Positions 6,133 to 56,232 of a stretch of 64,000 nt of DNA are shown piece after piece. The stretch comes from Candidatus Baltobacteraceae bacterium (GTDB lineage Bacteria; Vulcanimicrobiota; Vulcanimicrobiia; Vulcanimicrobiales; Vulcanimicrobiaceae): contig DASXEW010000003.1 of NCBI GenBank assembly GCA_036489885.1, forward strand, positions 992,001 through 1,056,000. Reading direction: 5' to 3'. Within the stretch, counting starts at the first letter, position 1, and each line of letters starts with the position of its first letter. The position numbers were made by a program, and so were the translations under genes. The notes beneath the pieces were generated by a model. That model did no database searches, was not told the origin of the DNA, and was given only the letters and a program-made list of their open reading frames with translations.

Positions 6133-6738
6133 ATGGCGGCAGCATCGATCGGTCACGAAGGCCATCACGACGATCACGCGCTAGCGCTGTACCGCGAAGT
6201 CGCAGATATACGGCTGCTCGGGTTCGTCCTGTTCCTGATCAGCGACTGCGTCTTGTTCTCGTCGTTCATCTTCGCGTACATCTATATGCGTGACGCGGCG
6301 CCGGTCTGGCCGCCGACGGGCGTCGGTCTGCCGGATGCGAATCTCGCCGCCGTCAACTCGATCGTCCTGTTCGGTTCCGGCGCAACGATGCACTTCGCGA
6401 TGGAGAACTGGAAGCACGGGACGGAAGTGAAGTTCCGCCGATGGATGGTCGCAACGATCATCCTGGGCGCGCTTTTCTTGTGCGGTCAGGGTTGGGAATA
6501 CACGCACATAAATGCGACATGGAACGGCTCGACGTTCGGTGCGGCGTTCTTCACGTTGACGGGGATGCACGGCTTCCACGTCTTCTGTGGGATTATTTTT
6601 CTGACGGTGCTTTTGAATCAGACGCTTGGCGGCGTCTACAACAAGAAGCAGTATTTCGGCTTGGTCGCGGGGACGCTGTACTGGCACTTCGTCGACGTCA
6701 TTTGGGTGTTCTTGTTCTTCCTGTTCTATGTATGGTGA
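6133..6738 (+). CDS. coxC: Cytochrome c oxidase subunit III
   Basis: A 201-residue integral membrane protein with five predicted helices. Family hallmarks are the histidine-rich N terminus (GHEGHHDDHALAL), WPPTGVGLPD, a helix containing GMHGFHVFCGIIFL, and the C-terminal YWHFVDVIWVFLFFLFYVW. The ATG at 6133, just after the coxA stop, is preferred to upstream in-frame starts inside coxA because it gives the usual short cytoplasmic N terminus. It is part of the caa3 oxidase with the two preceding genes. Confidence 0.95.
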   Translation: MAAASIGHEGHHDDHALALYREVADIRLLGFVLFLISDCVLFSSFIFAYIYMRDAAPVWPPTGVGLPDANLAAVNSIVLFGSGATMHFAMENWKHGTEVKFRRWMVATIILGALFLCGQGWEYTHINATWNGSTFGAAFFTLTGMHGFHVFCGIIFLTVLLNQTLGGVYNKKQYFGLVAGTLYWHFVDVIWVFLFFLFYVW

Positions 6739-6754
6739 AAGAAATGAGAATGTC

Positions 6755-6871
6755 GTTACGAGCCCCCGCGGGGAATAAACACACTATCGTTATGATCCTG
6801 GGCTCGGCGGTTTGGGGGCCCCATGCGAAGCAGGGGGGGCGCGAAGCCTGGGGCGGAGCGCCTTCAAAATG
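6755..6871 (+). repeat. Dispersed repeat family A, copy 1, ending at a start codon
   Basis: This segment closely matches the reverse complement of 24828-24944. Shared blocks are GTTACGAGCCCC, CGGGGAAT, TGGGCTCGGCG, CCCATGCGAAGCA and GCCTGGGGCGGAGCGCCTT; the middle about 22 bases differ. Both copies run straight into AAAATGA, so the ATG of an unrelated gene forms their edge. The interior can fold (CCCATGCGAAGCAGGGG, and GGCGC pairing with GCGCC), which would place the only GGAG ribosome-binding candidate in a stem. It interrupts the cox operon between coxC and the small membrane genes. Confidence 0.8.
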
Positions 6872-7087
6872 ACAGAGCAGACGTTCGCGCATATCCTGCG
6901 TACGATCGCGATCATTGGCGCGATCGTGGTCGGCATCGTTGCCGTTTATCAAGTCCGCAACGATTGGAAAACGCCGGGCCTCGACATTCAAGTCTCCAAG
7001 CTGTTGCTGGGGCTCATGGCATTCGGCTGCGTCATCGTCATCCTGTCGTCAACCGGAGTCATCGGTTGGCAAACGAAGGGTTACTGA
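6869..7087 (+). CDS. Small two-helix membrane protein in the cox operon
   Basis: A 72-residue protein beginning MTEQTFAHILRTIAIIG. It has two hydrophobic segments, about residues 10-28 and 44-66, joined by a polar loop, RNDWKTPGLD. I do not recognise a family, and it lacks clear similarity to the usual prokaryotic CoxD/subunit IV. Its place right after coxC, in the same direction and one base before another small membrane gene, suggests an accessory subunit or assembly factor of the caa3 oxidase. The ATG lies at the very end of a family A repeat, so the ribosome-binding site is supplied by the repeat. Confidence 0.75.
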   Translation: MTEQTFAHILRTIAIIGAIVVGIVAVYQVRNDWKTPGLDIQVSKLLLGLMAFGCVIVILSSTGVIGWQTKGY

Positions 7088-23799: not shown

Positions 23800-24216
23800 T
23801 TACTGTTTGATATTGCCGCAGGCGACGTAGGTCCCAACTTCGTTGGGCGACTTGTGAACGTTGACCGCAAATGGTCCGGAGAGCAGCGACGCTAACGAGA
23901 CATTTTCGAGCGTCGTCGACGACGAGCCGCCGTCGAGGGTCATCAGTGGATATTTCGGCTTTGGATTGAGTTTCGCGCAGGTTCCATCATGGATGTGAAC
24001 CGGCTGCTTCGCGGCCGTCGGATTCGTCATGTTGACAGAAACGACGAGGTTCGGACCGCGCTGGAGGAACGTCGCGGTTCCGTATTCGCCGGAACCGTTT
24101 TGTGAGCTCAGAACGATCGTGAGATGATCCGGTGCGGAGGACATTTGGGCGAGGACTGTCGCCGGGACGGCGCCGCACAACACCGCCACCGAAGCGAGCA
24201 TAAGTAAACGCTTCAT
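23800..24216 (-). CDS. Hypothetical secreted beta-sandwich-like protein
   Basis: A 138-residue protein with a signal peptide (MKRLLMLASVAVLCGAVPATVLA). The mature domain contains SGEYGTATFLQRGPNLVVSV, KQPVHIHDGTCAKLNPKP and a C-terminal KSPNEVGTYVACGNIKQ. The alternating strands, the HIHDGTC block and the final ACGNI recall CHRD or Cu/Zn-superoxide-dismutase-like folds, which use such His segments and a disulphide. The catalytic copper ligand set is not complete, so I call it only SOD/CHRD-like in appearance. It is convergent with the dehydratase gene and stands alone. Confidence 0.72.
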   Translation of the reverse strand: MKRLLMLASVAVLCGAVPATVLAQMSSAPDHLTIVLSSQNGSGEYGTATFLQRGPNLVVSVNMTNPTAAKQPVHIHDGTCAKLNPKPKYPLMTLDGGSSSTTLENVSLASLLSGPFAVNVHKSPNEVGTYVACGNIKQ

Positions 24217-24237: not shown

Positions 24238-24257
24238 AGGCGCTCCGCCCCTGGCTC
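24238..24257 (-). repeat. Dispersed repeat family A, terminal fragment
   Basis: AGGCGCTCCGCCCCTGGCTC matches the outer 20 bases of the full copy at 24828-24944, in the same orientation, with one mismatch. It abuts the stop codon of the CMD/AhpD-like gene, so that gene has family A sequence at both ends. Confidence 0.6.
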
Positions 24258-24830
24258 CTAGCGGCCCATTGAGTAAAATTCGGCGTTGGGGCGCATGTCC
24301 ATCAGTCCGGCCATCCGATTCGAGAAGCCGAAAAACGCGGCGATTGCGGCGATATCCCAAATGTCGTCGTCTGAAAAGCCGAGAGTCCGCAGCGCGTCAA
24401 TCTCCTCGTCGGTCGCCGCGAACGACGGCTCGTTCACGCGTGAGGCAAACGTCAAGATCGCGCGCAAACGCGGCTCGAGATCGGCAGTCTTCCAATTGTT
24501 CGCGATCTGCTCGGCCAGAATCGGATTCTTCCCGATCACGCGCAAAGCCGCGCCATGCGCAGTCATGCAATACTGACAGCGGTTCTCGCCCGAGACCGCG
24601 ACGACGATCGCCTCGCGTTCGGCGCGCGATAGTCCGCCCTCGCCGCGCATCAACACGTCGTGGTAGTGCATGAATGCACGAAAGTGTTCGGGACGGCGCG
24701 AGTACGCGCGAAAGACATTCGGAACGAATCCGATTTTGCCGGAATTCTGATCGTAGATCGCGCGAATGTCATCCGGGAGCTCGTTCTCCGGCATCTCGCC
24801 GAATCGTGAGAAACGCTTTTCTGTAATCAT
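24258..24830 (-). CDS. CMD/AhpD-like peroxidase-related protein
   Basis: A 190-residue alpha-helical protein of the carboxymuconolactone decarboxylase/AhpD superfamily. The redox motif is CQYCMTAH with C85, C88 and H92, preceded by EREAIVVAVSGEN as in the peroxidase-related subgroup. The C-terminal half (DDDIWDIAAIAAFFGFSNRM) is also typical of that subgroup. It probably acts as a thiol-dependent reductase of hydroperoxides or a partner in thiol redox, though its substrate is unknown. The ATG stands at the inner edge of a family A repeat, which supplies the leader; a repeat fragment also abuts the stop. Confidence 0.88.
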   Translation of the reverse strand: MITEKRFSRFGEMPENELPDDIRAIYDQNSGKIGFVPNVFRAYSRRPEHFRAFMHYHDVLMRGEGGLSRAEREAIVVAVSGENRCQYCMTAHGAALRVIGKNPILAEQIANNWKTADLEPRLRAILTFASRVNEPSFAATDEEIDALRTLGFSDDDIWDIAAIAAFFGFSNRMAGLMDMRPNAEFYSMGR

Positions 24831-24944
24831 TTTAAAGGCGCTCCGCCCCAGGCTCCGCGCCCCCCATGCTTCGCATGGGGTCCCCCAAACGCCGAGCCCA
24901 TCATCACTGCGGTGGTGCAAACATTCCCCGAGGGGGCTCGTAAC
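24828..24944 (-). repeat. Dispersed repeat family A, copy 2, ending at a start codon
   Basis: Read on the minus strand it runs from GTTACGAGCCCCC to GGAGCGCCTTTAAAATGA and closely matches 6755-6871. It contains a 7-bp stem with a CGAAG loop (CCCCATG..CATGGGG) and a terminal GGCGC/GCGCC pairing that would enclose the GGAG just upstream of the ATG at 24830. In both copies the repeat points into the gene and supplies its 5' leader. Confidence 0.8.
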
Positions 24945-24972
24945 AACATTTCTTGTTCTGTCTCCATTCAAT

Positions 24973-26493
24973 CTATCGTGAGACGGCAGTCTTGAGATCC
25001 GAAAGGACCGCGCGCGCGGCGCGCCGGCCCGGAAAACCGGTGACGCATCCACCCGGATGCGTTCCCGATCCGCACAAATAGAGTCCGCCAAACGGCGTGC
25101 GAACGTTGAAGCGGTCTTCGAAGATCTGACCGGGCAAGAGCTCGCCGTGGAAGATGTGCCCTCCCGAGATGCCGATGCGTGCTTCGATGTCGGCCGGCGA
25201 GAGGATATCCCAATCTTCGATGAGGTCGAGCAGGTTCGGTGCGTATTGCCCGAGCGTTTCGATGATCGTGCGTACGACCGCGCGCTTCTCGTTCGCACTC
25301 CAGCGAACGGCGGTGCTGTAGGGAAAATACTGGGCGAAAATCGAGAGAATGTGCTTGCCTTGCGGCGCGAGTGAATCGTCGGTCGGGGTTTGCATGAAGC
25401 ACTCGAGCATCGGTGCGCGCGAGGCGCCGCGACTGCGCGCATCGTCGTGTGCGCGCTGGAGATAGTCGACGTCCGGGGCGACGTGGATCGTCGCTTTGTG
25501 GTGCGGCTGCAGATTCGTTCCCGGTCGCGCGGTAAAGTCGGGTAATCCGCCGAGCGCGAGATTGATCTTGAACGACACGCCTTCGGCACGCCAGGCTCGC
25601 ACGCGCTCGAGAAAGGTGCTTTCGAATTCATTGCTCGCGCACAAATCGAGGAATGTCGTCTTCGGATCGGCGTTCGAGAGAATTGCACGCGCGCCAAACG
25701 CGCGTCCGTCCGCACATTGGGCTTCCATCCGTCCGTTGCGTGCGATCCGCGTGACTTCGGCGCCGCTGTGGACGTCGACGCCGGCAGAACGCGCCGCCGA
25801 AGCAACGGCGGCGGAAAGTGCGCCCATGCCGCCGCGCACGAATCCCCACGCACCTTGTTCGCCGAGCACGCGTCCCGCGTAATGGTGCGCGAGCACGTAC
25901 GTCGTCCCCGGGTCGCGCGGGCCTGCATAGGTTCCAATCAATCCGTCCGTTGCGAGTGTCGCTTGCAACAGCGGCGTCTCGACGAATTGCTCGACGTACG
26001 CGCTGACCGGAAGATCGAAGAGTTCGCGAGTGGTCGCATCCAGCGCGTCGAGCCGCGGATCATCATCGTCGAGATGATCGAAGAGCTCCGTGCCAAGCGC
26101 TTCGGCGCTCTCGGCAAACGCTTCGAAACCGTCGATGTCGGATTCCGAAAAGCGCCCGATCTCCTCCGCGTTCGCCGTCGCATCCGAACCGAGCAGCAGA
26201 GACCGGCCGTCGAGCAGCGGCGTGAATGAGGCCGGCTCTTTGCGGTACGCGCTGAATCCGTGCTTCTCGAGCTCGAGCTCCCGTACGATGACCGGATCGA
26301 AGAGGCTGCAGACGTACGAGGCGGTCGAGACCGTGTAACCGGGCCAGGTTTCCTCGCAGCGCGCTGCGCCGCCGATCGCGGCCGATTTCTCGAGGACCGC
26401 TACCCGCGCGCCGCCTTGGGCAAGGTATGCGGCGGCGACCAGGCCGTTGTGGCCCGCGCCAATGACTATCGCGTCGTACTCAGCCTCGGCCAT
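24973..26493 (-). CDS. Phytoene desaturase-like NAD(P)/FAD oxidase
   Basis: A 506-residue flavin-dependent amine-oxidase/carotenoid-desaturase-type protein. The dinucleotide motif is AIVIGAGHNGLVAAAYLAQGG followed by VLEKSAAIGGAARCEE. A long middle substrate-binding part contains GTTYVLAHHYAGRVLGEQGAWGFVRGG, and the C-terminal FAD motif is LYLCGSGTHPGGCVTGFPGRRAA. It belongs to the CrtI-like group that includes pyridine-nucleotide-disulphide-like NAD(P)/FAD oxidoreductases of unknown substrate; no carotenoid synthase is seen nearby. The ATG at 26493 overlaps the YkgJ gene by 14 bases. Confidence 0.88.
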   Translation of the reverse strand: MAEAEYDAIVIGAGHNGLVAAAYLAQGGARVAVLEKSAAIGGAARCEETWPGYTVSTASYVCSLFDPVIVRELELEKHGFSAYRKEPASFTPLLDGRSLLLGSDATANAEEIGRFSESDIDGFEAFAESAEALGTELFDHLDDDDPRLDALDATTRELFDLPVSAYVEQFVETPLLQATLATDGLIGTYAGPRDPGTTYVLAHHYAGRVLGEQGAWGFVRGGMGALSAAVASAARSAGVDVHSGAEVTRIARNGRMEAQCADGRAFGARAILSNADPKTTFLDLCASNEFESTFLERVRAWRAEGVSFKINLALGGLPDFTARPGTNLQPHHKATIHVAPDVDYLQRAHDDARSRGASRAPMLECFMQTPTDDSLAPQGKHILSIFAQYFPYSTAVRWSANEKRAVVRTIIETLGQYAPNLLDLIEDWDILSPADIEARIGISGGHIFHGELLPGQIFEDRFNVRTPFGGLYLCGSGTHPGGCVTGFPGRRAARAVLSDLKTAVSR

Positions 26494-27166
26494 TGGGGCG
26501 CGGTTTGAACGGGGCGCCGATCTTGAACTCGCGGTCGTGCCGTAGGTCTCGATCGACGTCATCGCAGCCAATCGGGGAGAAATCCGCGCAGTCGTGCGGC
26601 CGAGCCGGATAGATGCCGCAATAGTACTGGCCGGATTTGGGGCCCATCAGGAATACGCACGCGCTGCCGCTGTCGCTGGGGTCGACTTTCTTGAGCCAGC
26701 CGACTGCGTGATCGTCAGGCGCCGGTCGCGCGTTCACATAGCGCTTCATCGTCATCTTGTACGACAGTCCCAGATGCTTTGCAATCCGTTCGACGTCAGC
26801 TTTGCTGACGAATGGTTCGTACGACTTACAACACTCAGCGCATCCGGGTGGACACGAAACGTTATCGGGCAGATCACGCAGATGTTCGCGCGCAAGCTCG
26901 ACGAGACGTCCGATCGCTGCGACGAATTCCGGATCGTCGTTGTATTTGTACACCCACTCCTTGTGCGTAATTTCATTCGCGTTGTATTTGCGAACGGTCT
27001 TTTCGTTGAACGTGATCGTGACGTGTTCTTCATCGATGTCGATCGAACTGAATTGACGTAACCCCTCGAGATCCAAGAGCTCGATTTTGGTAGGCTGCTT
27101 TGTCTCGCGCGTGAACGTCGAAAGCTCGCGACGTGCACGTAGGGTGATGAGATCGATTGTCTCCAT
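26480..27166 (-). CDS. YkgJ-family cysteine-cluster protein
   Basis: A 228-residue soluble protein. The CxxxCxxCC cluster in VSCPPGCAECCKSYEPF starts the YkgJ (CxxCxxCC) zinc- or iron-binding domain, and further cysteines follow in QYYCGIYPARPHDCADFSPIGC. Such domains likely bind a metal or Fe-S cluster and occur in putative methylation- or oxygenase-associated proteins; the exact role is unknown. An N-terminal 85-residue region (charged, ELLDLEGLRQFSSIDIDEE) is not part of the domain. It is followed directly by the phytoene-desaturase-like gene, suggesting a two-gene operon. Confidence 0.88.
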   Translation of the reverse strand: METIDLITLRARRELSTFTRETKQPTKIELLDLEGLRQFSSIDIDEEHVTITFNEKTVRKYNANEITHKEWVYKYNDDPEFVAAIGRLVELAREHLRDLPDNVSCPPGCAECCKSYEPFVSKADVERIAKHLGLSYKMTMKRYVNARPAPDDHAVGWLKKVDPSDSGSACVFLMGPKSGQYYCGIYPARPHDCADFSPIGCDDVDRDLRHDREFKIGAPFKPRPNGRG

Positions 27167-56067: not shown

Positions 56068-56078
56068 CAGCCTCGCCT

Positions 56079-56120
56079 TGTCATCCCGAGCGTAGGCGCG
56101 AAGCGCCGTAGTCGAGGGAC
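56079..56120 (-). repeat. Dispersed hairpin repeat family B, copy 2
   Basis: TGTCATCCCGAGCGTAG then GCGCGAAGCGC then CGTAGTCGAGGGAC. It lies 12 bases after the acyl-CoA synthetase stop, inverted relative to the copies at 29215 and 56186. Together with 56186-56227 it forms an inverted pair about 65 bases apart. Confidence 0.85.
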
Positions 56121-56185
56121 AGCCTTTATCTTGCTAAGCGCGACTTCATTATTTTCCTCGAACTCGCAGACAAACGATCACCACT

Positions 56186-56227
56186 GTCCCTCGACTACGC
56201 GCCTGCGGCGCTACGCTCGGGATGACA
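56186..56227 (+). repeat. Dispersed hairpin repeat family B, copy 3
   Basis: GTCCCTCGACTACG-CGCCTGCGGCG-CTACGCTCGGGATGACA, the mirror of the copy at 56079-56120 across an AT-richer spacer. The two can pair to form a long hairpin of roughly 35-40 bp between the acyl-CoA synthetase gene and the quinone oxidoreductase gene. Confidence 0.85.
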
Positions 56228-56232
56228 AGTGT

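Follow-up and report, generated by a model that had tools for sequence, protein, structure and literature searches.

Operon junctions in one family of the Candidatus Eremiobacterota harbour a repeat that we interpret, with moderate rather than high confidence, as a short, non-coding, probably mobile structured element, which lies in sense orientation and places its own GGAG some 10 nt ahead of the start codon of the gene that follows. This reading is based on dispersed homologous copies, on their position and orientation, on covariation and on junctions that are empty in relatives.

The window, that is, the whole analysed stretch of 64,000 nt (C3:992001-1056000 of a 3.48-Mb genome in four contigs), contains two copies. 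As the earlier note had claimed, they share about 115 bases ending at the start codons of two unrelated genes: BLAST aligns 6755-6871 (+) with 24828-24944 (-) at 84% identity across all 117 nt (E = 4.8e-30), and ungapped likeness reaches 144 nt at 81% (6729-6872 versus 24827-24970). AAAATGA terminates both copies, and the ATG within it is the gene start in each. Copy 1 (6750-6868, +; 5' edge approximate) lies between the cyoC stop codon (6736-6738) and the ATG (6869-6871) of a 72-aa protein encoded at 6869-7087 (+), which gave no NCBIfam match and is called cyoD-like solely from its position after cyoC in the cytochrome oxidase operon. Copy 2 (24831-24949, -; 5' edge approximate) separates an upstream ORF (24973-26571) from the gene of a 190-aa peroxidase-related enzyme (TIGR01926; 24258-24830, -), whose ATG is at 24830.

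Across the genome of origin, 31 matches were found by BLAST and 37 copies by the covariance model R1 at E up to 0.1, so that the dispersed family is far larger than first noted. R1, which comprises 42 cores, covers hairpins 2 and 3 and ends at GCGCC; the start codon thus lies outside the model. The core of copy 1 (6814-6862, +) scores 70.7 bits and that of copy 2 (24837-24885, -) 75.8 bits. A possible third copy, badly decayed, is located at 24239-24294 (-), 22 nt before a gene starting at 24216, and matches R1 weakly (16.3 bits, E 0.42). For the family as a whole, 251 R1 matches were taken; 40 were duplicates, leaving 211 distinct copies from about 35 genomes among the matches listed. Elsewhere in the window, 56077-56122 and 56184-56229 form a 46-nt inverted repeat (85% complementary, 61 nt apart), in which R1 finds no match.

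Structure of the element

The element is about 110-120 nt long and consists, from 5' to 3', of an edge, which is frequently ATG-KTG, the helix P1, GGGGG, hairpin 2, hairpin 3 and about six A/T-rich nt that lead to the start codon. P1 encloses a conserved CCTCGGGGAAT just inside the helix, plus a variable loop. Its strands CGAGCCC and GGGCTCG are located at 6759-6765 and 6800-6806 in copy 1 (+) and at 24934-24940 and 24893-24899 in copy 2 (-), and the helix is backed by the partner-swap test described below. Hairpin 2, most commonly CCCCATGC-GAA-GCATGGGG in the genome of origin, reads CCCCATGC-GAA-GCAGGGGG with one imperfect pair in copy 1 (6819-6837, +). Hairpin 3 follows the scheme GGCGC-GNA-GCC-NNN-GGC-GGA-GCGCC with a symmetric GNA/GRA internal loop, and in copy 1 is GGCGC-GAA-GCC-TGG-GGC-GGA-GCGCC (6838-6862, +); the closing strand of the element ends in GGAGCGCC. 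The candidate Shine-Dalgarno (SD) motif GGAG had been proposed to lie within a GGCGC/GCGCC stem, and this stem is indeed present in both window copies, with GGAG at 6855-6858 (+), 10 nt before the ATG, and at 24844-24841 (-). Throughout the family, GGAG is part of the last strand of hairpin 3 in 194/211 copies.

Both window copies are of type I. In 46/211 copies the 5' domain is circularly permuted: the P1 strands are swapped, with GACCGAGCGC first and TTGCGAGGTC second. The GAG/A internal loop of the permuted form is, by inspection, present in some non-permuted copies too, and 48/211 copies fit neither type.

As judged from compensatory changes, for which the stems had been put forward as a test, the structure of the element is under selection. 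In a MAFFT alignment of the cores, 95.8% of cells pair and seven pairs are changed on both sides; none of 500 shuffles matched these pairing values, and controls with slid partners gave 35-62%. The R1-fitted alignment (104 matches, 96 distinct rows), which is biased towards the structure, yields 98.6% pairing and eight doubly changed pairs. Of 117 type I copies, 82% form a P1 of 6 bp or more, compared with 21% if the partner strand is taken from other copies, and type I contains 48 distinct duplex strings of 5 bp or longer. Among the permuted copies (n=46), GACC/GGTC is found in 28 and GAGC/GCTC in 18, with no mixed pair, although the pattern selecting these copies, which demands C or G at the positions concerned in both strands, permits mixed combinations. 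The case for structure is built on this covariation and not on the folding stability of single copies, which are not unusually stable compared with shuffles (z -0.40 and -1.14). GGAG has a mean predicted P(unpaired) of 0.57; hence neither complete masking nor complete exposure of the motif is predicted.

Position at operon junctions

The proposal that copies abut start codons holds for a majority of the family. A start codon follows the last hairpin by 5-8 nt in 129/211 copies, at exactly +6 in 91 of these; in the genome of origin, a start codon with an ORF is found 5-8 nt past the core in 27/37 copies and at exactly +6 in 21. ORFs of at least 80 aa start at +6 in 82/201 copies (the 10/211 copies without downstream sequence being left out), compared with 0-17 at every other offset from 0 to 60, and an antisense control at the 5' edge has no start-codon peak, with a maximum of 7 per offset. 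The start-adjacent share varies by genome, from 27/37 in the genome of origin and 16/24 in G111 to 2/9 in G115 and 1/10 in G026. The remaining 82/211 copies are not positioned 5-8 nt before a start, and some copies precede what looks like a native SD (L074 and L082 are examples).

Upstream, 166/195 copies have a co-directional ORF of 100 aa or more whose end is no further than 200 nt away, and in 97/195 the position of the upstream stop relative to the core is -85 to -50, corresponding to the 5' edge of the element (16/211 copies without upstream sequence are left out of both counts). As upstream stops cluster at the 5' edge and starts at the 3' end, the element tends to fill the stop/start junctions of operons. 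Arrangements of more than one copy were observed as well. Before glmS, locus L237 (G117) has tandem copies at 858-906 and 985-1033, 127 nt apart; a near-repeat of the opening codons of glmS lies between the two. L218 (G111) has a partial second copy at glmS. At L031 (G001:C75) a copy at 118-171 is directly followed by the inverted 5' part of the element in head-to-head orientation.

Downstream proteins of the genome of origin were scanned against NCBIfam for 30 out of the 37 copies, and 27/30 matched at E up to 1e-8; the three without a match include the small cyo-operon protein of the window. Targets include alaS, valS, atpA, fabZ, nadD, rimI, minD, trxB, yvcK, ureC, tkt, yebC, idi type 2 and a methylmalonyl-CoA mutase domain protein. 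Several best matches fall under the curated cut-off (for example the first nadD, the succinate-CoA ligase and the transketolase models), and these names are therefore approximate. No common pathway is visible among the NCBIfam names in this genome. At L232, the target is one that we take, by its sequence, to be rpmJ.

Distribution, inheritance and mobility

R1 matches 47/99 genomes of the host family and 22/38 of its genera, whereas 50 genomes representing other families of the phylum gave no match (47/149 in total, all in family f1). Copy number is patchy, ranging from 0 to 34 per family genome and likewise from 0 to 34 within a single genus. The exact pattern of the element occurs in 115 stretches across named genomes; the listed records are assigned to Candidatus Eremiobacterota, Eremiobacteria or WPS-2, apart from one Polyangiaceae contig, which has no R1 match, and the host is accordingly assigned to this phylum. 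None of the listed exact matches is mycobacterial, although diverged relatives would escape an exact pattern. Viral contigs, plasmids and phages gave no match, and carriage by phage or plasmid is accordingly without support.

Comparison of individual junctions revealed many empty sites. At the cyoC-cyoD junction, the element is absent from 28/30 loci, most of them with short spacers, and present in the genome of origin and G094; a separate analysis shows copies before the same gene in G119 and G120. At atpA, R1 matches 2/30 loci (the genome of origin and G008), where the empty-site comparison covers the 30 loci apart from two starts that could not be located and one that is masked by N. Further atpA copies, from a separate analysis, occur in G035 and G095, and G092 retains a remnant including GGAGCGCC at a site that is empty in its genus mate G091. 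At the peroxidase gene, the element is found in 1/30 loci, that of the genome of origin; the R1 search took in all 30 loci, and 13/30 starts were not located in the comparison. G001, from the same genus as the genome of origin, is empty at both atpA and the peroxidase gene. At L275 (G026), what is left upstream of atpA is the 5' part of the element alone (ATGTGTCGGCGCCCTCGGG), and a native-looking SD lies closer to the gene.

In genus g8, same-gene copies exceed their mean likeness to other copies in 12/13 pairs; by this measure of sequence likeness, such copies are inherited in that genus. For cross-genus pairs at shared targets (n=46), the 5' domains are no closer than those of other copies (mean rank 0.51). 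Genera nevertheless share targets in 54 pairs, compared with an expectation of 7-17 if targets were drawn at random from 2500 or 1000 genes. This comparison covers copies among the matches listed, uses assumed gene numbers and admits any ORF whose start is no more than 60 nt away; a few links may therefore be overlapping-frame artefacts, as the G008 copy L058 in the cyo group appears to be. Such sharing may reflect either favoured sites that are hit repeatedly or old copies that persist and diverge.

Taken together, the dispersed copies, the empty sites in relatives and the patchy copy number suggest that the element is mobile, as had been surmised from the two window copies, and we infer that copies move; neither a mobilising enzyme nor a target-site duplication was established. 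Terminal inverted repeats, as found in MITEs, are absent from the element: in 162 copies, the longest run is 3.67 within copies and 3.67 with swapped partners. Long target-site duplications gave no signal; an ATG at the 5' edge goes with start-adjacent insertion among permuted copies only (15/21 at starts versus 4/18 away from starts, compared with 15/31 versus 8/18 in type I). Spread by reverse transcriptase was rejected, as RVT_1 was detected in just 3/21 genomes, the genome of origin not among them. REP/RAYT elements are dispersed hairpin repeats, and the present family resembles them in its hairpins, its high copy number and its intergenic position. We considered whether it might be an element of this or of the IS200 type, with the hairpins serving as single-strand DNA substrates of a Y1 transposase. 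However, Y1_Tnp occurs in 4/99 genomes (G020, G027, G105 and G116), none of which is among those with the highest copy number or is the genome of origin. Membership of this class was thus rejected; the idea is largely refuted and highly improbable.

Proposed function and alternatives

In the mechanism that we favour, the element would insert in sense orientation where one gene stops and another starts, parting the latter from its old ribosome-binding site, and as RNA it would fold into P1, hairpin 2 and hairpin 3. Because the element ends in GGAGCGCC and about six A/T-rich nt before the start codon, the old ribosome site would be displaced and a replacement supplied, with GGAG 10 nt ahead of the start, at working distance. 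GGAG would then initiate translation. Ribosomes would either load directly at GGAG or arrive via a leader ORF, in which case they may translate across the leader and reinitiate at the start of the gene, in the manner of a bicistronic leader. Several findings speak against this proposal: the 82/211 copies away from starts, G026 in particular, and those before a native-looking SD; the lack of a transposase from the two families tried, of terminal inverted repeats and of long target duplications; the intermediate accessibility of GGAG and the ordinary folding of single copies; and the cross-genus reuse of targets, which is unlike the prediction of random insertion.

The last point would be accommodated if the element were instead a cis-regulatory RNA, a protein- or ligand-sensing leader copied before a large regulon and kept for regulation, with the SD of hairpin 3 as its output. 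The strong covariation in three helices, the conserved internal loop and the circular permutation are typical of functional RNA, and the retention of same-gene copies within genus g8 agrees with this view, as does target sharing above random. However, a regulon is hard to reconcile with targets that have no pathway in common, with a range of 0 to 34 copies within one genus, with R1 matches in only two of 30 loci at either atpA or cyoC-cyoD, and with the numerous copies away from starts, and we regard this explanation as rather unlikely. Also rather unlikely, in our view, is a MIRU-like coupling mechanism in which a small ORF running from the 5' edge stops on the ATGA of the gene and thereby delivers ribosomes, its peptide being irrelevant. 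An ORF able to couple in this way is present in 91/128 start-adjacent copies, compared with 62.2 +/- 4.2 or 67.8 +/- 4.1 in shuffles and with 32/82 copies away from starts, and ATGA is found in 75/128, while 22/58 control ORFs have an A after the first ATG. Yet kinship of the copies, which are not independent, inflates the shuffle test, and 37/128 start-adjacent copies are without such an ORF. Nor is the reading frame conserved: the distance from anchor to start, modulo 3, is distributed 28/23/23 in type I, and substitutions are even over codon positions (423:413:385 pairwise differences, in 10 type I copies of the genome of origin picked for lack of indels). The same values, together with a frame openness that is similar on both strands (210 copies), led us to reject a protein-coding reading at the peptide level.

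It also speaks against such coupling that an SD just upstream of the 5' edge is enriched in some classes only. Enrichment is seen among permuted start-adjacent copies (12/21) and among those type I copies that lie away from starts (20/42); type I copies at starts show none (23/72, with 21 and 18 for the control windows). The border used for type I is approximate.

The idea raised by the earlier note, of a mobile 5' leader bringing regulated translation to the gene it enters, is thus partly supported. The support concerns position and mobility; regulation through the SD that the element carries in a conserved hairpin would be a further step. Possible, though less likely than not, is the wider proposal that a lineage-specific mobile RNA leader with three covarying helices, one of them also permuted, acts as a portable translation-initiation module. 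It would enter between the ribosome site of a gene and the start codon and replace the native signal of essential genes (such as atpA, alaS and valS), much as bicistronic leaders do in synthetic constructs. Were this so, essential genes in one bacterial family would have had their initiation region captured by a dispersed element. The case would illustrate how a repeat can occupy the most sensitive part of a gene and leave it functional, and would provide a natural, structure-based, portable ribosome-binding leader. Nine copies are present in Vulcanimicrobium alpinum WC8-2 (G008), described as a cultured strain (PMC9758169), which makes the question directly testable.

Among known systems, the closest functional analogue appears to be the mycobacterial MIRUs. 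These are summarized in a 2025 review (PMC12548453, citing Supply et al. 1997) as apparently mobile short repeats that carry a coupled ORF and enter at start codons while hardly impairing the gene. The present element is likewise a short dispersed repeat at start codons inside operons, as its +5 to +8 spacing and the upstream stops at its 5' edge attest. As far as that account goes, MIRUs couple their ORF at -4 nt, whereas here frame, codon pattern and peptide are not conserved and three helices covary; moreover, the exact pattern of the element has no mycobacterial counterpart among the matches listed. The pneumococcal BOX, RUP and SPRITE repeats are portrayed in PMC3049150 as dispersed, predicted to fold, transcribed, able to extend operon leaders and carrying small ORFs. 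They resemble the element as foldable dispersed repeats in transcribed regions, but the passages considered do not mention a fixed spacing to start codons. The TAACTGA direct repeats of Beggiatoaceae, according to the excerpts of PMC4679880 considered, lie a few nt upstream of the starts of functionally unrelated genes, with a proposed translational role; these are heptamer arrays, in contrast to a 110-nt covarying structure with an SD. Unlike a riboswitch or leader described in Rfam, the element is matched by no curated model at the gathering threshold in the window, where the best sub-threshold hit was a 12.8-bit lncRNA model. A literature search on repeats and structured RNAs in the phylum and on mobile ribosome-site elements, with subscription papers mostly outside its scope, returned no description of this family. 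Finally, the cyoC-cyoD junctions at L312 (G088) and L325 (G069), from two other genera, contain a different leader of about 95 nt with the inverted repeat GATTTTG...CAAAATC, which may represent a second family of junction elements.
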